Below are positions 15,546-59,162 of a stretch of DNA of 64,000 nt, piece after piece. Origin of the DNA: Microbacteriaceae bacterium X2B (GTDB taxonomy: Bacteria > Actinomycetota > Actinomycetes > Actinomycetales > Microbacteriaceae); the NCBI GenBank assembly GCA_005502445.1, contig SCPB01000007.1:1-64000 (forward strand), given 5' to 3'. Below the pieces are notes generated by a model that saw only the letters and a program-made list of their open reading frames with translations, made no database searches and was not told the origin of the DNA. Numbering within the stretch: position 1 is the first letter of the stretch; every line of letters starts with the position of its first letter. The position numbers and the translations under genes are program-made.

Positions 15546-15947
15546 ATGAGCAGCACGCCGAAGACCATCGGTATCGTCGTGGCGATCGTCGCCGTCGTCG
15601 TCGGAGCGGTTCTGATCGCGCCGTCGATCGGCGACAGCATGTTCGGCACGGGTGGGTCGCAACCGCCGGCGGCCGCGTCGAGCGACGTCGAGCTCTCGGT
15701 CAACGACGCCGGCGAGACCTACGGCAGCGCGAACGGCGGGTCGGTGCCCGACCTGCTCGCGGCACAGACCGACGATGGCGCGATCGGGTACGTGCGCGTG
15801 AGCGAGCTCGACCTGGCCCGCAACGTCGCCGGCTCGGTCGAGTCGGGCGAGTGGCCTGTCGACGTGTATGAGAAGGACGGCGAGACCGTCATCGGGCAAC
15901 TCACCGTGACGAAGGACATGCCCGGGCCGCGCGACGGCCGGAACTGA
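15546..15947 (+). CDS. Small membrane-anchored secreted protein of unknown function
   Basis: 133 residues: a lysine near the N-terminus, one hydrophobic helix at about residues 8-28, then a Ser/Ala linker and an acidic extracytoplasmic part of about 95 residues (SNDVELSVNDAG-like, then EKDGETVIGQLTVTKD). No family recognised. It may be an anchored periplasmic-side protein. It ends just before the A/T-richer patch that holds the AlbA_2 gene. Confidence 0.65.
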   Translation: MSSTPKTIGIVVAIVAVVVGAVLIAPSIGDSMFGTGGSQPPAAASSDVELSVNDAGETYGSANGGSVPDLLAAQTDDGAIGYVRVSELDLARNVAGSVESGEWPVDVYEKDGETVIGQLTVTKDMPGPRDGRN

Positions 15948-15955
15948 GGCCGGTC

Positions 15956-16072
15956 GTCGAACGCACGGCGCACGAGGACCGAGTCGAGCACGGCATCTAT
16001 GCCGGTGTGTACCAGAGCGACTACACGGCCCATCAGGATCGCTTTGACGCAATCGTGTCAGCGGCCGTGTAA
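15956..16072 (+). pseudogene. Open frame tail without a start (possible gene remnant)
   Basis: A frame ending in TAA at 16070 reads VERTAHEDRVEHGIYAGVYQ and continues plausibly to a short C-terminus, with protein-like composition. No start codon with a ribosome site precedes it; upstream it overlaps the previous gene in another frame. It may be the 3' end of a gene lost when the neighbouring A/T-richer segment arrived. 16073-16164 is A/T-rich and shows no gene. Confidence 0.3.
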
Positions 16073-16164
16073 TCCCACCTGCGTGCGGGTTCCTATCAAG
16101 TTTTCGATCAATCTTGAATGATGCGTTCGTAATCCTGACGTAACACGAACTGCAACCATGTCAT

Positions 16165-17802
16165 TCAAATGGCGTAGTAACGTCGACCGCGCGTTTGGCC
16201 TCGAGCAACAACCAGGCCTGCGGCGGTCAGGTCGTTCAGCAGGTGTCGAACGACAGATTGGTCCTCGTCGAGGACAGCCGCCCCCTCAGCTGTCGACAAG
16301 CTGCCTCGCTGCTGGATCTCATCCAACAGCATCTGCCGCTTGCGGGACTGTGCTTCCAACCCGCTCGAGCCCGCGCGCATGACGACCTCCTCAGAGAGCT
16401 CATATCGGGCACCCCCTGCATGTCCAGCGCGCACGAGCAGTCCCTTCACCACCGCGCCGCGAAGAAGTGCTTCTGCGTTCGTGTTCGGCATGAGTTGGAC
16501 CAGCCGGCGACGCGTCACCGATCCCTCCCGCCGCGCGAGCGCGAGGACCCGGCGCTCAGGTCCGGTGAGGTGGAGATGGCCCAGCATCGCGAGCCATGCC
16601 TGATCCTCGACAGACACCAGGAAGCGATTTCGGAGAGTTACGGTGACCGAATCTGGCGTGGGCACGATGAGCGGCGGCTCCATCAGTCGGGCGTCCATGA
16701 ACTCGTACATGCGATCGATCCCCTCGCCGTACTCCTCGACGAGCCCGAGGGCTTTCAGGGCGCGCATCACCCGCCGATTGCGCGAGTAGTGCTCATCTCG
16801 AATGTTCTCGATGGTGATCGGCCCAGGCAGGCCACCAGGACTCCTAATCTCGATTCGGTCCTCCCAGATGGACACGTCGACCGTGGTGCCTCGGCGCCCA
16901 TAGTCGCGATGGGCGAAGGCGTTCAACAGGGCCTCACGAAGGACTTCCTCAGGATACTCGGGCCAGACGGCACGCCGAGAGCCGATGACGACCTGGTACC
17001 GGCGGGTGTGCTCTCCGATGAACGCCATCGAGGAATCCAGCAACGTCGATATCGGTCCCGACAGCTCTTGCCGGGCCTCGGTCGGCCCAGGACCAGGACC
17101 GACGCCGGTACGCCTGACTAGCTGAACTGATGCTCCTGAAACGAAGCGACGTGGGTCTCGACCGAACAGCACGACCGCCGCGATAGTCACCTTCGGATCA
17201 GAAGGGGCAGGCTGCGGGATGGCCACGTCGAGATCGATCAGGGCGCGGTGATATTCGGCCGCCTCGACCGGTGGTCGACCATCGATTGCGAGCGCTTGGT
17301 TGATCAGATCCAAGTCGAAGTCCGTCGCGGAGACCTGGGTGACGGCCTCCTCCTCACCAGGCACGTCTTCCCGTTCACGAACGAACCTGGATAGCTGGTC
17401 CCCAATGAGCGGGTGCACGTCGGATCCGACTCGCCGGAGTAGACGTCCCTCGGTGGTCGTCACGATCCGTCCCCGCACCTCCGGTACCGCTACGACGACC
17501 ACCTTCTCGTCATCGACCTCCAGTTCTCGGAGCTGCACCTCAACGCCGACGTTGCGGGCCGTGCGCGTAACCTCGTCCGCCACCTTCTGCGTCAACTCGC
17601 ATCCATGGAGTGTGCGATCGTCCTTAATGCCGAGAACGATGAGCCCACCGTCCGTCATAGCGAAGGCAGGGATCAGTTCGTTCAGGCGGGCGGGGACCCG
17701 TTTGAAGTCGAGCTGATCGGTTTCGATTCGCCCGAGGACGGCCAGCAACTCTCCCAGCGTCGTAGGGGTTGGAAGCTCTGAGAGACGGGGAAGCGCGGCC
17801 AC
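16165..17802 (-). CDS. AlbA_2 (Schlafen-type) DNA-binding and HATPase-like regulator
   Basis: 545 residues. The N-terminal ~130 residues fit an AlbA_2 domain (TDQLDFKR, FAMTDGGLIVLGIKDDRTLHG). The middle has the degenerate histidine-kinase-like ATPase box LLNAFAHRDYGRRG with a following ENRIEIRSPGGLP-type motif (here DRIEIRSPGGLPGPI), and the last ~100 residues look like winged helices. This architecture occurs in stand-alone transcription regulators and in some phage-defence loci. Base composition is lower in GC than neighbours, suggesting transfer. TAATGT sits six bases before the GTG, so the message is probably leaderless. Confidence 0.75.
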   Translation of the reverse strand: MAALPRLSELPTPTTLGELLAVLGRIETDQLDFKRVPARLNELIPAFAMTDGGLIVLGIKDDRTLHGCELTQKVADEVTRTARNVGVEVQLRELEVDDEKVVVVAVPEVRGRIVTTTEGRLLRRVGSDVHPLIGDQLSRFVREREDVPGEEEAVTQVSATDFDLDLINQALAIDGRPPVEAAEYHRALIDLDVAIPQPAPSDPKVTIAAVVLFGRDPRRFVSGASVQLVRRTGVGPGPGPTEARQELSGPISTLLDSSMAFIGEHTRRYQVVIGSRRAVWPEYPEEVLREALLNAFAHRDYGRRGTTVDVSIWEDRIEIRSPGGLPGPITIENIRDEHYSRNRRVMRALKALGLVEEYGEGIDRMYEFMDARLMEPPLIVPTPDSVTVTLRNRFLVSVEDQAWLAMLGHLHLTGPERRVLALARREGSVTRRRLVQLMPNTNAEALLRGAVVKGLLVRAGHAGGARYELSEEVVMRAGSSGLEAQSRKRQMLLDEIQQRGSLSTAEGAAVLDEDQSVVRHLLNDLTAAGLVVARGQTRGRRYYAI

Positions 17803-49491: not shown

Positions 49492-50586
49492 TCAGCGGCC
49501 GAGCTTCGGGGCGAACTGGCGGGCGACGAGGCGGGCGATGAGGTTGAGCAGCATGACGATGAGGATCAGCGTGAGCGCGCCGGCCCAGGCGCGGTCGAGG
49601 TAGGACTGCGCATCGGTGCCCTGCGCCACGTAGGAGCTGTAGACGAAGACGGGCAGGCTCTGCATGCGACCTTCGGTGAGGTCGTAGTTCAGGTTCTGGG
49701 TGAAGCCTGCTGCGACGAGCAGTGGGGCTGTCTCGCCGATGACGCGAGCGATGGCGAGCATGACTCCCGTCGTGATGCCCGCGATCGAGGTCGGCAGTAC
49801 CACGTTCACGATCGTGAGCCACTTGGGTACGCCGAGCGCTAGAGAGGCCTCGCGCAGCTCGTTGGGCACGAGTCGGAGCATCTCTTCGCTCGAGCGGACG
49901 ACGACGGGCACCATGAGCACGGTGAGCGCGATCGCCCCCGCGATCCCGAGGCGCTCACCGGGTCCGAACAAGGCAGTGAAGACCGCGTAGGCGAACAGGC
50001 CGGCAACGATGGAGGGGATGCCGGTCATGACGTCGACGAAGAACGTGATCGCCCGAGCGAGCCGACCGGTGCCGTATTCGACGAGGTAGATCGCGGCGAG
50101 CAGACCGATCGGCACCGAGATGACTGTCGCGGTGCCCGTCATCAGCAGGGTTCCGACGATCGCGTGGATGGCGCCGCCGCCCTCGCCCACGACGTTGCGC
50201 ATCGAGTAGGTGAAGAACTCGATGTCGAATCTGTTGGTGCCGTTCGAGACGACCGTGAATACGAGCGAGATGAGAGGGAGGAGCGCGATCACGAACGCCA
50301 GGACGACCAGACTCGTGACGAGTCTGTTGGTGGCCTGGCGAGAGCCCTCCACGAGCCGCGAGATGAGCACGATGACGATGGTCGAGGCCAGAAAACCGAA
50401 GAACACCGTGCCGATGATGCTGAACGTCTCGCCCGTCGCGGCCGCGATGAGGCCGAAGACCGCCGCCACCGCACCGAGCGATGCGCCGAGGATGACCCAG
50501 GGCGACCACGCCGGCAGACTGCCGCTGGCGAAGGCGTTGGTGGTATCCCGCGATGTCGCCGCGCGGCGGTCGGTCGCAGCGGTCAT
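49492..50586 (-). CDS. pstA: Phosphate ABC transporter permease
   Basis: 364 residues, longer than the E. coli protein because of an N-terminal extension and about eight hydrophobic segments in total. PstA landmarks: [58 protein letters not shown] and [11 protein letters not shown]. The ATG shares one base with the pstC stop (TGATG). Confidence 0.94.
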
Positions 50587-51533
50587 CAGTTGGCTCCCGA
50601 GAAGTCTTTGCGGCGATTGATGATGAACCGCGCGAGCATGTTCACGAGCAGGGTGATGACGAAGAGCATGAGGCCGGTCGCGATGAGGACGTTCACATTG
50701 AGCCCGTAGGCCTCGGGGAAGCTCAGTGCGATGTTCGCCGCGATCGTCGACGGGTTCTGCGAGCTGATGAGGTTGAAGGTCACGGCGCCCGAGGCCGACA
50801 GCACCATGGCCACGGCCATCGTCTCGCCGAGCGCTCGGCCCAGGCCGAGCATCGCACCCGAGATGATGCCGGCCCGGCCGAAGGGCAGCACGGCGACCCG
50901 GATCATCTCCCAGCGCGTCGCCCCGAGTGCGAGGGCCGCCTCCTCGTGCAGAACGGGCGTCTGCAGGAAGACCTCACGGCAGATCGCGGTGATGATCGGG
51001 AGGATCATGACGGCGAGCACGACGCCCGCGGTGAGGATGGTGCGCCCGGTTCCGGAGGCAGGCCCCTCGAAGAGCGGAATCCAGGAGAGGTTCTTCTCGA
51101 GCCAGGAGTAGGCGGGTTGCACCGCAGGGGCGAGCACGTTTCCGCCCCACAGGCCGAAGACGACGCTGGGGACGGCGGCGAGCAGGTCGATGATGTAGCC
51201 GAGCCCTGCGGCGACTCGACGCGGGGCGTAGTGCGAGATGAACAGCGCGATGCCGATCGCGAGGGGTGTCGCGAGCACGAGGGCGATCACGGCGGCCCAC
51301 AGCGTTCCGAAGACGAGCGGGAAGGCGTAGCTGAAGAAGTCGGTCCCGCGCAGGATCGTGATGTCTTCAGCGGGGGTCGTGATCGCCGGGATCGACTGGA
51401 TGATCAGGAATGCGGCGATCGCGGCGAGCGCGATGAGGATGAGGGTGCCGGCCGAGAGCGCGCTTCCCGAGAAGATGCGGTCGCCCGGTCGCAGTTTCGG
51501 CTTCGGGATCGATTGCACGGTCTCAGTGCTCAT
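50586..51533 (-). CDS. pstC: Phosphate ABC transporter permease
   Basis: 315 residues, six or more helices. Landmarks: VFGTLWAAVIALVLATPLAIGIALFIS, AAVPSVVFGLWGG, HEEAALALGATRWEMIR and GRALGETMAVAMVL. Start ATG 51533, about 104 bases after the pstS stop, with a hairpin between the two. Confidence 0.94.
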   Translation of the reverse strand: MSTETVQSIPKPKLRPGDRIFSGSALSAGTLILIALAAIAAFLIIQSIPAITTPAEDITILRGTDFFSYAFPLVFGTLWAAVIALVLATPLAIGIALFISHYAPRRVAAGLGYIIDLLAAVPSVVFGLWGGNVLAPAVQPAYSWLEKNLSWIPLFEGPASGTGRTILTAGVVLAVMILPIITAICREVFLQTPVLHEEAALALGATRWEMIRVAVLPFGRAGIISGAMLGLGRALGETMAVAMVLSASGAVTFNLISSQNPSTIAANIALSFPEAYGLNVNVLIATGLMLFVITLLVNMLARFIINRRKDFSGAN

Positions 51534-51577
51534 CGGGAAGGGTCCTCGTCTCGGGTTCGGCGATACTGCCACATGCA

Positions 51578-51626
51578 GTCTGCCCGGTGCCCCCCCTGCC
51601 GACAAAGCGGGGCGCACCGGGCAGAC
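51578..51626 (-). terminator. 13-bp hairpin between pstS and pstC
   Basis: GTCTGCCCGGTGC (51578-51590) pairs perfectly with 51614-51626; four more G-C pairs can form inside beyond a one-base bulge. Eleven bases behind the pstS stop. Fits an attenuator that makes PstS more abundant than the membrane parts. Confidence 0.75.
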
Positions 51627-51636
51627 GGTGGATCAA

Positions 51637-52728
51637 CTACTTGATGGCCTCGATGGCGGCCGAAGCCTTCTCGAAGAGGTCGTTCGAGATCGGCGCAGAG
51701 CCGGCGGCCTCAGCCGCGACCTGCTGGCCCTCCTCGCTGATGATGTACGAGAGGTACGCCTTGACGAGCTCGACGCTGTCGGACTCGGCGTACTCGTTGC
51801 ACGCGATCAGGTAGCTGACGAGCACGATCGGGTAGGCCGCCGAATCGGGGGTGCGGTCGAGCTCGATCGCGAGGTCACCCTCGCCACGGCCCTCCACGAG
51901 GGGCGAGGCGTCGACGATCGCCGCAGCGGCCTCGGGCGAGAACGGGATGAACTCGTCGCCGACCTGCACCGCGACCGTGCCGAACTCGGCCGAGCGCGAG
52001 GCGTCCACGTAGCCGATGGTGCCGGTGCCGTTGGCCACGGCGTCGACGACGCCCGAGGTCTGCGCAGCAGCTTCGCCGCCGTCGACCGGCCAGTCACCCG
52101 AGACCTCGTAGGTCCACACCTCGGGTGCAGCGGCAGCGAGGTAGTCGACGAAGTTCTCGGTCGTGCCCGACTCATCCGAGCGGTGCACCGCGGTGATCGG
52201 CAGGTCGGGAAGCTCCACGCCCTCGTTCGTCGCTGCGATGGCCGGGTCGTTCCAGTTGGTGATCTGGCCCGCGAAGATGCCCGCGATCGTGGCGGCGTCC
52301 ATGTTCAGCGTGTCGATGCCCTCGAGGTTGAAGACGACCGCGATGGGCGAGATGTAGGCGGGGATCTCGACGATGCCCGTGCCGGGAACACAGGCCCCGA
52401 AGGCGTCTTCTGCGATCTCCTCGTCCTTGAACGCGCGGTCGGACCCGGCGAACTGGCTGCCGCCGGCGATGAAGGTGTCGCGGCCGCCGCCCGAGCCGAT
52501 CGGGTCGTACTCGACGGTCACACCGGGGTTGGCGCTCTGGAAGCCGGCGACCCAGGCCTCCTGGGCCGACTGCTGCGACGACGCACCGGCGCCGACGAGG
52601 GTGCCCTCGAGCGTCGAGGTGGTCTCGTCCGGTGCCTCGCCGGTCGGCTCGTTGGCGGCGCAGCCGCTCAGCACGATGGCGCCGGCGGCGATGATGGCGG
52701 CGAAGCCGCTTGCACGCGTGATGTTCAC
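51637..52728 (-). CDS. pstS: Phosphate-binding lipoprotein
   Basis: 363 residues with lipobox LSGC near residues 20-23. Phosphate-binding signatures: GAGASSQQSAQ (TGAGAS-type loop), GSGGGRDTFIAG, FAGSDRAF, and HRSDESGTTENFVDYL. It captures phosphate outside the membrane. ATG 52728; the PHO box lies about 100 bases upstream. Confidence 0.95.
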   Translation of the reverse strand: MNITRASGFAAIIAAGAIVLSGCAANEPTGEAPDETTSTLEGTLVGAGASSQQSAQEAWVAGFQSANPGVTVEYDPIGSGGGRDTFIAGGSQFAGSDRAFKDEEIAEDAFGACVPGTGIVEIPAYISPIAVVFNLEGIDTLNMDAATIAGIFAGQITNWNDPAIAATNEGVELPDLPITAVHRSDESGTTENFVDYLAAAAPEVWTYEVSGDWPVDGGEAAAQTSGVVDAVANGTGTIGYVDASRSAEFGTVAVQVGDEFIPFSPEAAAAIVDASPLVEGRGEGDLAIELDRTPDSAAYPIVLVSYLIACNEYAESDSVELVKAYLSYIISEEGQQVAAEAAGSAPISNDLFEKASAAIEAIK

Positions 52729-52828
52729 TGTGTTCCCTTCGGGGATCGGTGACAGGGGTGTGCGCGGCGCAAGGGGGCCGCACGGTATCCGACGCTACGA
52801 AGCGCGAGTGTCCACCTCGGCCCGTAAT

Positions 52829-52857
52829 GGTGAACGCGAGATTAACGAGAGGCGAAC
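52829..52857 (-). promoter_or_regulatory. PHO box of three 11-bp direct repeats upstream of pstS
   Basis: On the minus strand: GTTCGCC-TCTC-GTTAATC-TCGC-GTTCACC, three heptamers spaced by exactly four bases. This is the architecture of PhoP (Streptomyces) and RegX3 (mycobacteria) operators. A -10-like TAGCGT lies at 52798-52793, giving a ~60-base leader to pstS. Confidence 0.8.
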
Positions 52858-52876
52858 GTCGACGGCCGCCGACCTC

Positions 52877-53836
52877 TCAGACGGCCGGCCGATGCGTCTC
52901 GACGGCGACGAGCCACGGCCTCTCGCTCTCGAGCGCGAAGTGCAGCACCGAGTACTCGCCGGTGCCGAGCGCCGCGCTGCGGCGCAGGCTCGCGTCGGCG
53001 GTCGCGCCGCCGAGCGAGGCAGCGGCGCCGATGATCTGGGGGATGACCGGGCCGTGCGAGCACAGCACGACCGACTGGCGCCGAGCGACGCGCTTGGCGA
53101 CGGCCGCTCGCACACGCTCGCCGCTGCCGTCGTAGGCATCTTGACTGAGTGTCGTGGATGCCTTGACGTCGAGCCCGGTGAGGGCCGCGGTCGGGCCGAT
53201 CGTCGACAGGCAGCGCACCGCCGTCGACGACACGAGCCGTTCGGGGCCGTAGGCGGCGATGCCCCCCGCGACCGAGAGGGCCTGCTCGATGCCGCGGTGC
53301 AGCAGCGGTCGCGTGTGGTCGGGGCCGTCCCACTGCTCGTAGGCCATGGCCTTGCCGTGACGCAGCACGATCACCGCGAAGGTGCGGGCGTGGCCGGCTT
53401 CCACCTGCGCGGCGAAGCGGTCGAGCACGTCGGCGTCGTGCTCGTAGGTCAATCGCTTGACGGCCTTGGCGATCGGCACCCACTCGAGGGCGAAGATCTC
53501 GCCGTTGGCCTCGTAGGTGTGGCGCTCGGCGGCGCCGGGGTCCACTTCGGCCGACCAGTAGTGCACGACCTTCTCGCGACCGTTCGGCAGCGCGTACTCG
53601 ACGGTGCCGAGCGGGGCGCCGAGCTCGACGTCGAATCCGGTCTCCTCCGCGATCTCGCGCACGGCGGTGTGCGGCAGCGTCTCACCGGGGTCGACCTTGC
53701 CCTTCGGGATCGTCACGTCCCTGTGCTGCGTGCGGTGCACGAGCAGCACGCGCACTCGGCCGTCGACGAGCTTCCAGACCACGGCGCCGGCCGCGACGAC
53801 GGCCGACTGCTCCGTGCCCGTCATCCCCGACGTCAT
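52877..53836 (-). CDS. NUDIX hydrolase fused to histidine phosphatase (MutT1-like)
   Basis: 319 residues with two domains. The NUDIX box [22 protein letters not shown] lies near residues 47-70 (listed in parts: GKVDPGETL, then REIAEETG). The C-terminal half from about residue 165 is a phosphohistidine phosphatase ([13 protein letters not shown] with the RHG catalytic motif, later [10 protein letters not shown]). Mycobacterial MutT1 has this layout and hydrolyses 8-oxo-dGTP and diadenosine polyphosphates. The ATG overlaps the ppk stop by four bases, tying it to polyphosphate metabolism. Confidence 0.9.
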
Positions 53837-56034
53837 CGCGGGCCGCTTGTTCGTCGGCGGGTCGAGATGGTGGTCATGACGACATTCTGCATGTCGGCGA
53901 GCGCGCGGCCGGTGCTGTCGCGGTGCCGGCGCTGCCATTCGCCGTCGGGCTGCAGCTGCCACGCGCTCGTCGACTCGCTCATCGACAGCTCGAAGAGCGC
54001 CTCGACCTGGGCGAGGTGCTGGGGCTCGGTGAGGCGCACGAGCACTTCGATGCGCCGGTCGAGGTTGCGGTGCATCATGTCGGCGCTGCCGATGTGCACC
54101 TGCGGGTCGCCGCCGTTGCGGAAGCAGAAGATGCGCGAATGCTCGAGGTATCGCCCGAGCACGCTGCGCACGCGGATGTTCTCGCTCAGGCCCTCGCGCC
54201 CGGGCACGAGGGCGCAGATGCCGCGCACGACGATGTCGACGGGAACCCCCGCGGCGCTCGCCCGGTACAGGGCGTCGATGATGGCCTCGTCGACGAGCGA
54301 GTTGACCTTGATCCGGATGCCCGACTCGCGCCCCTCCTTGGCGGCGCGGATCTCGCCGCTGATGCCGCGCAGCAGGCCGCGCCGCAGGTAGCGCGGCGCG
54401 ACGAGCAGGCGCTTGTACTTCTTCTCGATGGCGTAGCCCGAGAGTTCGTTGAACAGTCTCGTGAGGTCTTTGCCGACCTGCTGGTCGGCGGTGAAGAGCC
54501 CGAGGTCTTCGTAGATGCGGCTGGTCTTGGGGTTGTAGTTGCCCGTGCCGACGTGCGAGTAGTACTTCAGCTCGCCGTTCTTCTCCTGACGCACGACGAG
54601 CGCGAGCTTGCAGTGCGTCTTGAGCCCGACGAGACCGTAGACGACGTGCACGCCGGCCTTCTCGAGCTTGCGCGCCCACTCGATGTTGTTCTGCTCGTCG
54701 AAACGCGCCTTGATCTCGACGAGCGCGAGTACGGCCTTGCCTGCTTCGGCGGCGTCGATGAGCGCCTCGACGATGGGGCTGTCACCGCTCGTGCGATAGA
54801 GCGTCTGCTTGATCGCGAGCACGTCGGGGTCGTGAGCGGCCTGCTCGAGGAAGGCCTGCACGCTCGTCGCGAACGACTCGTAGGGGTGGTGCACGAGCAC
54901 GTCGCCGCGGCCGATCGCGCGGAACAGATCGGGTGTGCCGTTGGGCTCGCTCGGCTGCAGCTGCGCCGAGGTCACCGGCACGTGCTTGGGGTACTTCAGG
55001 TTCGGTCGATCGAGCTTCGAGATCTCGAAGAGCCCGCCGAGGTCGAGCGGTGCGGGCAGCCGGTAGACCTCCTGCTCGGTGATGCCGAGCTCGCGCACGA
55101 GGAGGCCGAGGGTCACCGGGTCCATGTCGTCGGTGATCTCGAGGCGGATCGGCGGACCGAACCGTCGCCGCAGCAGCTCGCGCTCGAGCGCCTGGATGAG
55201 GTTCTCGGTCTCGTCCTCGTCGACCTCGACGTCTTCGTTGCGGGTGACCCGGAACTCGTGGTGCTCGAGGATCTCCATGCCGGGGAACAGCTCGCCGAGG
55301 TGATTCGAGATGAGGTCTTCGAGGGTCAGGAACCGCACGCGGCCCGAGCCGTCGTCGGGCAGCGGCACGAAGCGCGGCAGCACCTGTGGCACCTTCAACC
55401 GCGCGAACTCGACCTTGCCGCTCTGCGGGTTGCGCACGCGCACCGAGAGGTTGAGCGACAGCCCGGAGATGTACGGGAAGGGGTGGGCCGGGTCGACGGC
55501 GAGCGGCATGAGCACGGGGAAGATCTGCCGCGAGAAGGTCTGATCGACCTGAGCGCGGTCCTCCTCGTCGAGGTCGGCCCACGACTCGATGTGGATGCCG
55601 GCGTCGTCGAGCTCGGGCTTGACCAGATCGTCGAAGGCGATCGCATGCCGGTGCTGCAGGTCGAGAGCGACGCGATTGATGTCGGCCAGGACATCCCCCG
55701 GGGCCCGCCCGGTGTTCGTCGGCACCGCGAGGCCCGTCACGATGCGGCGCTTGAGGCCGGCGACGCGCACCATGAAGAACTCGTCGAGGTTCGAGGCGAA
55801 GATGGCGAGGAAGTTCACGCGCTCCAGCAGCGGCACCGCCGGATCTTCGGCGAGCTCGAGCACGCGCTGATTGAAACGCAGCCAGCTGAGCTCGCGGTCG
55901 AGGTAGCGATCGGCAGGGAGGCTGCCGTCGTCGACGCTCGTCGTCTCATCCCAGTCGTCGAGGAAGTCGCCTCCGACGCCCCCGTCGACCTGGTAGCTCG
56001 AATCGGTGCGGTACTCCTCGTCCTGCATCCGCAC
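53833..56034 (-). CDS. ppk: Polyphosphate kinase 1
   Basis: 733 residues, normal for PPK1, which polymerises the gamma phosphate of ATP. N-terminal [38 protein letters not shown], and the catalytic histidine in [20 protein letters not shown] near residue 490. C-terminal [23 protein letters not shown]-type segment ([15 protein letters not shown]) is also conserved. First gene of the ppk-NUDIX unit, followed by pst. Confidence 0.96.
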
Positions 56035-56100: not shown

Positions 56101-56817
56101 TCAGGCGGACGCCGTCGGTCGCGCGGCAGGGGCGAGCGCGGCTGCCGCGGCGACGGCGACCGCCGCTCCGACCAGCTGCGCGGCGATGAACGGGGCGACG
56201 CTCGCCGGCTCGATGCCCGCGAACGTGTCGCTCGCCATGCGCCCGATGGTGATCGCGGGGTTGGCGAAGCTCGTCGAGCTCGTGAAGAAGTACGCGGCAC
56301 CGATGTGCGCCGCGACCGCGGGCGCGATGAGGGCGTCGCGGCCGTGGCGCTGCAGGAGCAGGATGACCGCCACGAGCCCCGCGGTCGCGACGACCTCGGC
56401 GAGCAGCGTCGCGGGCTCGGCGCGCGCGGTGGTGCTGACGGCCACGGCCGGCAGCGCGAACATGAGGTTGGCGATCACCGCGCCGACGAGGCAGCCGACG
56501 ATCTGGGCGACGACGTAGACGCCCGCCTCGCGAGGGCCGCTGCGGCGCAGAGCGAGCATGACGAGCGTGACGGCCGGGTTGAGGTGGGCGCCGCTCACGG
56601 GGCCGAGGGCGGTGATGAGAACGGCGAGGCCGAAGACCGTCGCCAGGGCGTTGATGACGAGCTGCACGCCGACGTCGTCGCTCAGCCGGGTCGCCATGAC
56701 GCCCGAGCCGATGACGATCGCCGCGAGGGCGGCGCTGCCGATCGCCTCCGCGCTCGCGCGCCGCAGCAGCTCGCGCTGCGTCGAGGGGCGGACGGCGAAC
56801 GGGGCAGGGGCGGTCAT
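56101..56817 (-). CDS. Aquaglyceroporin-type channel of the arsenic cassette
   Basis: 238 residues, six helices with the two half-helix NPA motifs: GAHLNPAVTL near residue 78 and FANPAITIG near residue 190. Divergent from an ArsR-ArsC fusion. In Sinorhizobium an aquaglyceroporin (AqpS) in the ars operon lets arsenite made by ArsC leave the cell; the same job is likely here, since no ArsB or Acr3 gene is present in the window. ATG 56817 preferred; GTG 56823 is possible. Confidence 0.85.
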   Translation of the reverse strand: MTAPAPFAVRPSTQRELLRRASAEAIGSAALAAIVIGSGVMATRLSDDVGVQLVINALATVFGLAVLITALGPVSGAHLNPAVTLVMLALRRSGPREAGVYVVAQIVGCLVGAVIANLMFALPAVAVSTTARAEPATLLAEVVATAGLVAVILLLQRHGRDALIAPAVAAHIGAAYFFTSSTSFANPAITIGRMASDTFAGIEPASVAPFIAAQLVGAAVAVAAAAALAPAARPTASA

Positions 56818-56854
56818 GGACACAGCCTAGAGGAACGGATAGATTGTGGTCTAT
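56817..56854 (+). promoter_or_regulatory. Leaderless promoter and operator of the arsR-arsC fusion gene
   Basis: TGGACA 56817-56822, 17 bases, TAGATT 56840-56845, then ATG at 56853, seven bases on, so transcription starts at the start codon. The inverted repeat ATAGA-N6-TCTAT (56839-56854) overlaps the -10 and the ATG. It matches the element before the second arsC. Confidence 0.68.
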
Positions 56855-57746
56855 GAGTGAGGGGAGCGCTGCCGATCGATCGCTTCGTGCGCTCGCCGAC
56901 CCGACGCGCGCGGCGATCCTCCGCCGCTTGCTCGCCGCCCCCGACGGTCGCGCGACCGTCGGCGCGCTCGCCGCCGAGCTCGAGCTGCGGCAGCCGACGG
57001 TCTCGCACCACATGAAGCTCCTGCGCGAAATCGGGCTCGTCGACGGCGACGCCGAAGGGCGCCGCGTCTGGTACTCGGTCTCGGCCGGCGAGCGCGAGCG
57101 CGTCGCCGAGATCCTCGACGCGCACCCGGTCGCGCGCATGACCGGCCATGTGCTGCAGCGCATCATCGCCGACCTCTCGACGCGGTTCGCCGGCACCTTC
57201 TCGCCCGGCACGATCGAGCGCTACGTGCTCGAGAGCTACGACCTGCTCGCGGACGGCGCGACCATCACGCGCTACCTGCCCTCGCTCACCGCGCGATTCG
57301 CGGCAGACCGGCTCTCCGCTCTCGCGGCGATCGAGCGCCCCGCGGGTCACGACGGCGTTCCGGAGGTGCTCTTCGTGTGCGTGCAGAACGCGGGCCGCTC
57401 GCAGCTGGCCGCGGCCATCCTGCGCCACCTCGCGGGCGACCGCGTACATGTGCGCACGGCCGGATCCGCACCCGCCGACGCCGTGCGCACCTCGGTCGTC
57501 GCGGCGCTCGACGAGATCGGCGTGCCCCTCGGCGGCGAGTTCCCGAAGCCGCTGACCGACGAGGTCGTCCGCGCCGCCGATGTCGTCGTCACGATGGGCT
57601 GCGGCGACGCCTGCCCGATCTACCCGGGCCGGCGCTATCTCGACTGGCCTGTCGAGGATCCGGTGGGGCTGCCGATCGAGCAGGTGCGGCGCATCCGCGA
57701 CGACATCGACACCCGGGTGCGCGATCTGCTCGGCTCGCTGTCGTGA
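56853..57746 (+). CDS. ArsR-type regulator fused to ArsC arsenate reductase
   Basis: 297 residues. Residues 1-85 are an ArsR winged helix (LADPTRAAILRRLL, RQPTVSHHMKLLREIGLV); about 90-165 is a helical linker; 171-297 is a low-molecular-weight-phosphatase-fold ArsC with CX5R at C176-R182 (CVQNAGR) and a CX3C pair at C250/C254. The only cysteines in the protein are these three: the regulator half has none, so the usual ArsR thiol site for arsenite is missing. It presumably represses the divergent channel gene and the following arsC. Confidence 0.87.
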   Translation: MSEGSAADRSLRALADPTRAAILRRLLAAPDGRATVGALAAELELRQPTVSHHMKLLREIGLVDGDAEGRRVWYSVSAGERERVAEILDAHPVARMTGHVLQRIIADLSTRFAGTFSPGTIERYVLESYDLLADGATITRYLPSLTARFAADRLSALAAIERPAGHDGVPEVLFVCVQNAGRSQLAAAILRHLAGDRVHVRTAGSAPADAVRTSVVAALDEIGVPLGGEFPKPLTDEVVRAADVVVTMGCGDACPIYPGRRYLDWPVEDPVGLPIEQVRRIRDDIDTRVRDLLGSLS

Positions 57747-57778: not shown

Positions 57779-57798
57779 TAATATAGACGGATGTCTAT
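57779..57798 (+). promoter_or_regulatory. Operator and -10 region of the second arsC
   Basis: ATAGAC-GGAT-GTCTAT is a perfect inverted repeat at 57783-57798, overlapping a TAATAT -10 (57779-57784) and sharing the ATAGA/TCTAT core of the operator at 56839. A/T-rich against the surrounding DNA. ATG 57809 follows. Confidence 0.68.
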
Positions 57799-57808
57799 GC
57801 TTGCGTGC

Positions 57809-58219
57809 ATGAGCGAGAACAGCATCCCCACCGTCCTCTTCGTCTGCGTGCACAACGCGGGCCGGTCGCAGATGGCGGCCGGCTACCTGCAGCACCTCGC
57901 GGGCGACCGCGTGCAGGTGCTCTCGGCCGGCTCGGCGCCGAAGGACGAGATCAACCCCGTCGCGATCGCTGCGATGGCCGAGGAGGGCATCGACATCGCC
58001 GACAACGTGCCCAAGGTGCTCACGACCGAGGCCGTGCGCGAGAGCGACGTCGTCATCACGATGGGCTGCGGCGACGTGTGCCCGGTCTTCCCCGGCAAGC
58101 GCTACGAAGACTGGCAGCTCGACGACCCGGCCGGCCAGGGTATCGAGGCCGTGCGGCCGATCCGCGACGAGATCAAGCGACGTATCGAGGGGCTCCTCGG
58201 CGAGCTGCTGCCCGCCTGA
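57809..58219 (+). CDS. arsC: Arsenate reductase (LMW phosphatase fold)
   Basis: 136 residues. CX5R is C13-R19 (CVHNAGRS), and a CX3C pair is C87/C91 in MGCGDVCPVFPG; DP near residue 105 completes the phosphatase-like active site. Actinobacterial ArsC enzymes of this kind reduce arsenate with mycothiol/mycoredoxin or thioredoxin. It resembles the C-terminal half of the fusion protein next door, suggesting duplication. ATG 57809 is chosen because the longer TTG/ATG forms would begin before the operator. Confidence 0.9.
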   Translation: MSENSIPTVLFVCVHNAGRSQMAAGYLQHLAGDRVQVLSAGSAPKDEINPVAIAAMAEEGIDIADNVPKVLTTEAVRESDVVITMGCGDVCPVFPGKRYEDWQLDDPAGQGIEAVRPIRDEIKRRIEGLLGELLPA

Positions 58220-58481: not shown

Positions 58482-59162
58482 CTAGGCCTCGACCCGCCGG
58501 CCCTCGTCCTCGTGCAGGGTGAAGCGGTAGCCGACGTTGCGCACGGTGCCGATGAGCGACTCCATGTCGCCGAGCTTCGCGCGCAGTCGCCGCACGTGCA
58601 CGTCGACCGTGCGGGTGCCGCCGAAGTAGTCGTAGCCCCACACCTCGCTCAGCAGCTGCTCGCGCGTGAACACCCGGCTCGGGTGCGCGGCGAGGAATCG
58701 CAGCAGCTCGAACTCCTTGAACGTCAGATCGAGCGTGCGCCCGTGCACCTTGGCCGAATAGCTCGCCTCGTCGATCACGACGCCCGAGGCCTTGATCATC
58801 TGCGAGCCGGAGTCTCGCGACTGGCGGCCGATCGCGATCCGCAGCCGGGCATCCACCTCGGCCGGTCCGGCGGTCTCGAGGATCACGTCGTCGATGCCCC
58901 ACTCGGCGGTGACCGCCGTGAGCCCGCCCTCGGTGATGACGAGCAGCAGCGGCGAGCCCGCACCGGTCGCCGTGAGGATCTTGCACAGCCCCTTCGCGGC
59001 GGCGAGGTCGCCGCGCCCGTCGACGATGATCGCGTCCGCCGAGGGCGCACCGACGAGAGCCGCCGGCTCCGCGGGGATCACGCGGACCCGGTGGCTGAGC
59101 AGTCCTAGCGCGGGCAGAACGTCGCTGTTCACCTGCGAGGTCAGGATCAACAGCTGAGCCAC
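58482..59162 (-). CDS. glnR: OmpR-type orphan response regulator GlnR
   Basis: 226 residues. The receiver-like N-terminus has [18 protein letters not shown] and D48 in IIVDGRGDL, then [19 protein letters not shown], which matches the actinobacterial nitrogen regulator GlnR; the C-terminal winged helix has [18 protein letters not shown] and [16 protein letters not shown]. GlnR has no paired kinase and controls glutamine synthetase and ammonium genes. In mycobacteria it also lies near phosphate uptake genes. Start ATG 59162. Confidence 0.88.

Follow-up and report, generated by a model that had tools for sequence, protein, structure and literature searches.

The ars locus and the fusion gene

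The window (the whole stretch of 64,000 nucleotides of DNA that was analysed) carries an ars locus with a gene for an ArsR-ArsC fusion protein (ArsRC), a divergent aquaporin gene and, after the fusion gene, a stand-alone arsC (Table 1). The open reading frame, its length and the positions of its three cysteines were exactly as given in a sequence-only reading of this DNA, and an in-frame TTG at 56844, upstream of the ArsRC start, contributes no extra cysteine. The same reading had called the product an ArsR-ArsC fusion. Both domains scored above the Pfam cut-off (HTH_20/HTH_5 for the head and LMWPc for the reductase part), and between them lies a domain that had been missed, PF21234 (Phosphatase-like_N, 89.3 bits). 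The NCBIfam models placed the head in the ArsR/SmtB metalloregulator subfamily (NF033788, 76.7 bits against a cut-off of 55) and identified the part between head and reductase as a three-helix bundle dimerization domain. ArsRC is an ArsR/SmtB winged-helix protein and an ArsRC fusion, with head and ArsC in one open reading frame.

Table 1 Features of the ars locus (positions in the window)
Feature	Position	Strand	Basis or remark
ArsR-PF21234-ArsC fusion gene (ArsRC)	56853..57746	+	297 aa, with C176, C250 and C254 as sole cysteines
ArsR winged helix, residues 14-64	56892..57044	+	Pfam, invariant columns, AF2 secondary structure
Residues 35-37 (T-V-G), cysteine-free counterpart of the canonical CVC arsenite site	56955..56963	+	HTH aligned to fused and stand-alone ArsRs of the CVC type
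PF21234 three-helix dimerisation domain, residues 101-158	57153..57326	+	Pfam, NCBIfam, AF2 helices
LMW-PTP-type arsenate reductase domain, residues 172-293	57366..57731	+	Pfam LMWPc; 3t38 match
C176 codon, nucleophile of the CX5R P-loop; aligns with Cg_ArsC1' C88	57378..57380	+	Alignment; numbering from an excerpt of PMC6514093
C250 codon; aligns with Cg_ArsC1' C162	57600..57602	+	Alignment; numbering from an excerpt of PMC6514093
C254 codon; aligns with Cg_ArsC1' C166	57612..57614	+	Alignment; numbering from an excerpt of PMC6514093
Palindromic operator-like site ATAGATTGTGGTCTAT	56839..56854		Shares its final two bases with the beginning of the ArsRC ATG
TAGATT, -10-like hexamer within the palindrome	56840..56845	+	7 bases before ATG; putative leaderless promoter
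Second operator-like site ATAGACGGATGTCTAT, upstream of the stand-alone arsC	57783..57798		Same arrangement in relatives
Divergent MIP aquaporin, candidate arsenite channel	56101..56823	-	PF00230
Stand-alone LMW-type arsC	57809..58219	+	In-frame ATGs also at 57791, 57797

Relatives of the fusion were collected by a search of genome contigs, and the best 80 of 560 confirmed loci were used, a sample in which distant fusions are under-represented. Most of the 80 are named as Microbacteriaceae genera and some only as Actinomycetota MAGs; with the window they make an alignment of 81 rows. Across these rows (best 80 of 560 plus the window), Q47, P48, T49, S51 and H53 are invariant in the predicted DNA-contact helix (residues 47-59). 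An AF2 model of the monomer built from an alignment (pLDDT 90.5, pTM 0.74) was used for the fold only and not for the relative placement of the domains; an AF2 model from the single sequence was set aside (mean pLDDT 42). The former predicts helices at residues 98-111, 118-135 and 142-161 in the middle domain and, after the wing, only a helix of residues 81-88 before the three-helix domain. Because the structure listing of VIA-align was filled by the reductase domain, the fold of the head was judged by sequence.

Residues 97-295 of ArsRC matched Cg_ArsC1' (PDB 3t38) in sequence and fold, with 49-50% identity over 195-199 residues. The three Cg_ArsC1' residues with which C176, C250 and C254 align are named as catalytic in an excerpt of PMC6514093. 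Like ArsRC, Cg_ArsC1' joins the three-helix domain to a reductase with the same three cysteines, but it has no DNA-binding head. The alignment shows ArsRC to be of the Cg_ArsC1' kind, with the three-helix domain and the three catalytic cysteines, and its enzyme half has the cysteines needed by a thioredoxin-type arsenate reductase, an activity that is predicted. ArsRC scored below the curated ArsC equivalog cut-offs (64.2 against 157.6 bits for TIGR02689 and 48.5 against 174.3 bits for TIGR02691), and the stand-alone arsC of the window was also short of them (100.3 and 88).

The head lacks the cysteine sites of known ArsR proteins and the reductase keeps its own

Arsenic repressors are understood as arsenite binders. 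Besides the CVC type, there are an AfArsR type, with CC..C after the wing, and a CgArsR type, with an N-terminal CC. The bare absence of cysteine from the first 175 residues of ArsRC was rejected as evidence: nine other open reading frames of the window taken as genes contain only 10 cysteines in 3291 residues, and 175 cysteine-free residues are expected by chance (p ~0.59). The bare count being unremarkable, only a position-specific, family-wide absence counts as evidence. When other fusions were surveyed for the absence that the sequence-only reading had noticed, 77 of the 81 (best 80 of 560 plus the window) had no cysteine before residue 170, and the remaining four had a single scattered one (at position 60, at 124 in two cases, and in an N-terminal extension). 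None of the 81 had a cysteine at position 35 or 37, the places of the CVC arsenite-site cysteines; residue 36 was V in all 81, and residue 37 was G in 60, T in 18 and S in three. C176, C250 and C254 were each kept in 81 of 81.

The window protein has T35 and G37 in place of the CVCDL pair of the canonical ArsR1-type arsenite site, and the AfArsR-type and CgArsR-type cysteine triads are absent, there being no cysteine before residue 176. Other ligand residues were looked for among residues 1-165 of the same 81 rows (best 80 of 560 plus the window). The only His or Asp columns conserved in at least 70% of the rows were D16, H52, H53 and D107, with H52 and H53 within the predicted DNA-contact helix, and the sole Glu column at that level was position 119 (E in 69 of 81), where the window has G. 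As far as the alignment goes, the ArsRC head is without any cysteine site of known ArsRs and, D16 and D107 apart, without a conserved His/Asp set beyond the DNA helix.

A palindrome at the start codon of the fusion gene

The two palindromes of the window were rejected as evidence when taken alone, as 16 of 100 shuffles gave two matches at up to two mismatches. Being within chance there, the palindrome has to be judged by comparison. Among the best 80 of 560 loci, ATAGA-N6-TCTAT occurred exactly within -150 to +60 of the fusion start in 64 (reversed control, 1 of 80) and with at most one mismatch in 73 (reversed control, 3 of 80); it was missing or had two or more mismatches in seven. These 80 loci, 540,130 bases in all, contained 134 exact sites against one control match. 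Starts of arsC lay near 63 of these sites, fusion starts near 50, MIP starts near 16 and pstS2 starts near three, some sites being counted twice; 19 had no assignable gene start. The 2.57-Mb genome to which the window belongs has five exact sites (control, one), all at ars or pst genes: three of them at the start of a pst operon on contig C21, where two of these three lie at or inside the over-long open reading frame as listed.

Exact sites near fusion starts numbered 65 in the best 80 of 560 loci, and 63 of them terminate at an ATG that shares the reading frame of the fusion. All 63 have TANNNT seven bases before the ATG. Since the palindrome pattern itself fixes TA, only the final T is informative; it is present in 63 of 63 start-codon sites against 48% of all 134 sites, and so distinguishes fusion starts from arsC starts. 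The second site of the window (TAGACG) does not fit TANNNT. None of the 63 start-codon sites had TTGAC, TTGTC or TTGCC at -35 spacing. A repressor bound to the palindrome would cover the start codon as well as the -10-like hexamer.

Stand-alone ArsRs within about 3 kb of the fusions were also compared, counting open reading frames shorter than 650 bases that matched best to the CVC or the cysteine-less ArsR query. Among the best 80 of 560 loci, a site lay at most 200 bases from the start of only one of 24 cysteine-bearing ArsRs (CxCDL), and the start of that one (L035) faces the fusion. The sole cysteine-less stand-alone ArsR in this list (L084) also has a site near its start. The comparison favours an operator that belongs to the fusion over one that serves the cysteine-bearing ArsRs close by, and the palindrome at the ArsRC start is likely to be the binding site of the repressor.

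Neighbouring genes and the rest of the genome

The MIP protein of the window shares 51% identity over 201 positions with the MIP of a Phyllobacterium plasmid ars cluster, and a MIP relative was found within about 3 kb of the fusion at 46 of the best 80 of 560 loci. A separate arsC was found within that distance at 71 of the 80. With a second arsC usually near, the fused reductase seems superfluous for bulk reduction, yet every catalytic cysteine is kept. No match to ArsB (PF02040) or SBF/Acr3 (PF01758) was found in the genome of the window, while 6 and 12 of 14 control genomes matched, respectively, and an Acr3 protein of Cellulosimicrobium used as query also gave no match in the genome of the window. 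The aquaporin would therefore be the best candidate for arsenite exit.

The ars genes are preceded at 49492-56034 by pstA- and pstC-like open reading frames, pstS, a NUDIX hydrolase and histidine phosphatase-like open reading frame and a polyphosphate kinase gene. Of these, pstS and ppk, just upstream of the ars genes, were identified with Pfam, and the pstC- and pstA-like frames and the NUDIX/phosphatase frame by eye. At the best 80 of 560 loci, a ppk relative lay within about 3 kb of the fusion in seven and a PstS2 relative in eight. After arsC, on the opposite strand at 58482-59162, is a gene for a GlnR-type regulator (PF21695 and Trans_reg_C).

A second ars/pst island lies on contig C21 (16299-23321, locus L112), with the three palindromes at its pst start. 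It encodes a three-helix ArsC, PstS, two permeases, PstB, a winged-helix regulator and a cysteine-less stand-alone ArsR (L095), directly after which comes a reductase with a degenerate HTH, below the Pfam cut-off. Contig C37 carries at 15868-16242 a canonical cysteine-bearing ArsR (L087, CC..CIC), followed by a GNAT-like open reading frame recognised by eye; this ArsR is on another contig than the ars genes of the window.

Two types of fusion in Microbacteriaceae

A second sample consisted of 249 Microbacteriaceae genomes and overlaps the first; 64 of them had matches at E <= 1e-75, a threshold that makes the prevalence a lower bound. The class counts left out open reading frames without a head match or with a reductase score below 100. 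L178, L179, L180, L201 and L209 (which repeats L178) have weak heads and fall in neither class, and L181 gave no head match. Full-length open reading frames comprised 38 of the window type, one per genome, including the window itself and possibly sharing species with the 80 relatives, and 20 that keep the CVC site, in 16 genomes. Of the 38 window-type fusions, 36 had no cysteine before the reductase and all 38 had the catalytic trio; the two with a cysteine in that part have one cysteine at the first CVC position (L115) and one in the linker (L177). Both CVC cysteines and the catalytic trio were present in 20 of 20 CVC-type fusions. The exact palindrome was found in none of these 20, nor in six larger CVC-type stretches, and it was not found in 11 of the 38 window-type fusions.

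In a tree of the HTH (130 rows, only 92 columns), the window type formed one side of a branch (98/90) and the CVC fusions another (99/96); the latter grouped with CVC stand-alone ArsRs (100/98). CVC-type actinobacterial ArsRC resembles the window type in its three domains (seen with Pfam in L143), in its catalytic trio and in occurring in the same bacterial family, but differs from it in keeping the CVC cysteines, in having no exact ATAGA-N6-TCTAT and in its separate HTH-tree group. The six larger CVC-type stretches had ACR3 nearby in four, TrxA and TrxB in four, all three in three and arsC in six; on a Cellulosimicrobium plasmid (L143), a CVC-type ArsRC was found with TrxA/TrxB, ACR3 and arsC. 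ArsRC2 of Microbacterium sp. A33 is reportedly a negative regulator of an operon of this trx/ACR3/arsC type. In a phylum-wide draw, 147 of 396 genomes matched at E <= 1e-40, mostly in the reductase part; among the matches listed, a full-length match was present in five of the 396, and the three of the window type were all from Microbacteriaceae.

Cysteine-less ArsRs of the window kind also occur unfused, on C21 of the same genome, on the Cellulosimicrobium plasmid (L143) and at L179-L181, where the gene that follows encodes a reductase whose HTH is degenerate or undetected. Pairs of an ArsR and an adjoining reductase like that on C21 were seen on the Cellulosimicrobium plasmid and in other Microbacteriaceae (L178-L181); the L178 open reading frame has one cysteine, in an apparently over-long N terminus. 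Six unfused cysteine-less ArsRs did not form one group in the HTH tree. Covalent fusion is thus not obligatory for such a head, and the pairs cut both ways: they show that the head can be unfused, but also that the reductase is then encoded beside it.

A proposed mechanism and its alternatives

These comparisons make it fairly probable, in our judgement, that ArsRC is a leaderless autorepressor whose inducing signal arises in its own reductase domain. The ArsR winged helix would dimerise via the PF21234 three-helix domain, and the dimer would bind the palindrome that covers the -10-like hexamer and its own start codon. This binding would also shut the divergent aquaporin gene and the arsC that follows, and further sites in the genome would extend the repression to the pst phosphate-uptake operon. 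Arsenate, or its product arsenite, would engage C176, C250 and C254 and change the state of the reductase domain, either through a C176-C250 and then a C250-C254 disulfide formed during turnover or through arsenite bound to the three thiols. The altered reductase domain would cause release of the DNA, thioredoxin would reset ArsRC, and arsenite would leave through the aquaporin. We infer the DNA binding, the repression, the identity of the signal, its transmission from ArsC to the HTH, the leaderless start and the aquaporin exit from the arrangement of the locus and its relatives.

The signal is placed in the reductase because the head is without a known arsenite site and the reductase cysteines are kept in 81 of 81 fusions (best 80 of 560 plus the window) despite a nearby arsC. 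The sequence-only reading had already suggested the enzyme domain as the sensor, and this would be the best fit to the anatomy, with the arsenite site absent family-wide, the cysteine trio invariant and an operator that appears tied to the fusion. Its further idea, that arsenate reduction is linked to derepression, had been put forward earlier for a Paracoccus ArsRC, as an excerpt of PMC9479143 indicates. A narrower form of the proposal, which we hold only tentatively and would not bet on, is that the repressor reads enzyme turnover and not a ligand, the active-site disulfide (C176-C250, then C250-C254) freeing the DNA and thioredoxin re-arming the protein. If so, such a turnover switch would gauge arsenate flux relative to reducing power, in a protein whose head is without the arsenite site of its family.

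The sequence-only reading had allowed for a separate ArsR controlling the site, and the genome does hold two candidates, the cysteine-bearing protein of C37 and the cysteine-less one of C21, beside which the fused head would be a weak or co-binding partner. The C21 ArsR lies about 6 kb from the three palindromes at pstS, its recognition helix (TQPTVTHH) resembles that of the fusion (RQPTVSHH), and L084 is a case of a cysteine-less stand-alone ArsR with a site near its own start. However, the 10-kb stretch around the C37 ArsR contains no exact operator, and in the best 80 of 560 loci the site stands at the fusion start in 64 of 80 but near only 1 of 24 cysteine-bearing ArsRs. As five recognition-helix residues are also invariant in the fusion (best 80 of 560 plus the window), control by another ArsR seems rather unlikely. 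It would likewise be unlikely, to a similar extent, that the head answers phosphate status, a general redox signal or nothing at all, with the fusion merely co-expressing and co-locating two activities. The association with pst genes speaks for a phosphate signal: the PstS2 relatives near eight of 80 fusions and the three palindromes at pstS2 starts (best 80 of 560), the three palindromes at the pst operon of the same genome, and pstS and ppk just upstream of the ars genes in the window. Yet a link to pst does not imply such a signal, because Agrobacterium has pst genes under ArsR control, according to an excerpt of PMC7965956; also against this reading, the catalytic trio is kept in 81 of 81 (best 80 of 560 plus the window) although a second arsC is usually present.

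It would be surprising if arsenite were instead held by non-cysteine ligands in the head, or by reductase cysteines of the partner chain reaching the HTH, which would make ArsRC a normal ArsR with an unusual site. SmtB-type sensors do use His/Asp/Glu ligands, at alpha-5. The columns that would be needed are scarce here, however, D16, H52, H53 and D107 being the only conserved His/Asp positions and the Glu 119 column being G in the window (>=70% of 81 rows, best 80 of 560 plus the window); moreover, H52 and H53 belong to the helix predicted to contact DNA, and the model has only a short helix (residues 81-88) following the wing. The preferred reading, with the signal in the reductase domain, would provide a natural case of an enzyme used as sensor, in a group without an arsenite site but with a complete reductase that is present in at least 38 of 249 Microbacteriaceae genomes. 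ArsRC could then respond directly to arsenate, with a possible use in arsenate biosensors. The CVC-type fusion of Microbacteriaceae offers a ready natural control for the window type, and the palindrome is defined well enough for testing both fusion types in one reporter.

Relation to known fusions and ars clusters

ArsR-ArsC fusions are already known, being reviewed in PMC6205960 and grouped in PMC6514093, as excerpts of both show; in the latter, clusters C4 and C7 of an actinobacterial ArsC network contain such fusions from several actinobacterial genera, and section 14 and the other passages covered do not discuss head cysteines or operators of the fusions. The Paracoccus sp. ArsRC resembles the window protein in having ArsR and ArsC in one protein, and the proposal that couples arsenate reduction to derepression is credited to Chen et al. 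2022, Environ Microbiol 24:1977, in an excerpt of PMC9479143. A fusion of Paracoccus seriniphilus (277 aa), which may be other than the protein of Chen et al., has C90, C91 and C98 in the repressor half, whereas the head of the window protein has no cysteine; its gene precedes GAPDH-arsJ. Arsenite could therefore pass to a normal ArsR site in that fusion, while the window protein is without such a site. An Aliiroseovarius relative of the Paracoccus fusion gave no match to the profile of the three-helix domain, and the Paracoccus/Aliiroseovarius type keeps CC..C in the head.

Rhizobial ars clusters with an aquaporin (AqpS; excerpt of PMC6205960) are like the window in that the aquaporin gene adjoins ars genes; in the window, unlike those clusters, the channel gene and ArsRC diverge, and the palindrome lies between their starts. 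Cryobacterium ars operons are named in an excerpt of PMC12113805 that makes no mention of a fusion. The titles and abstract openings covered, with most subscription papers outside them, describe no cysteine-less ArsRC, start-codon palindrome or unfused pairs. Fusions and the reduction-sensing coupling are already published, and the cysteine-free head class and the start-codon palindrome are what differs here.

Other fusion types

In a different fusion from other Actinomycetota (L129 and L136-L141, also L130 and L131), an LMW phosphatase/ArsC-like domain directly follows a weak ArsR-like HTH. The three-helix profile gave no match in the fusions of the L129/L136-L141 type, and a separate three-helix arsC is present in the same stretch. 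Seven of these nine fusions (L130 and L131 included) have no cysteine in the 100 residues before the catalytic cysteine, suggesting that a cysteine-less head on an ArsC-like domain may have arisen repeatedly. A further type, at L120 and L126, has a head too divergent to align, as do some other fusions. It keeps only the first CVC cysteine (QLCVAHL) and has the three-helix domain and the reductase; its other head cysteines are scattered.
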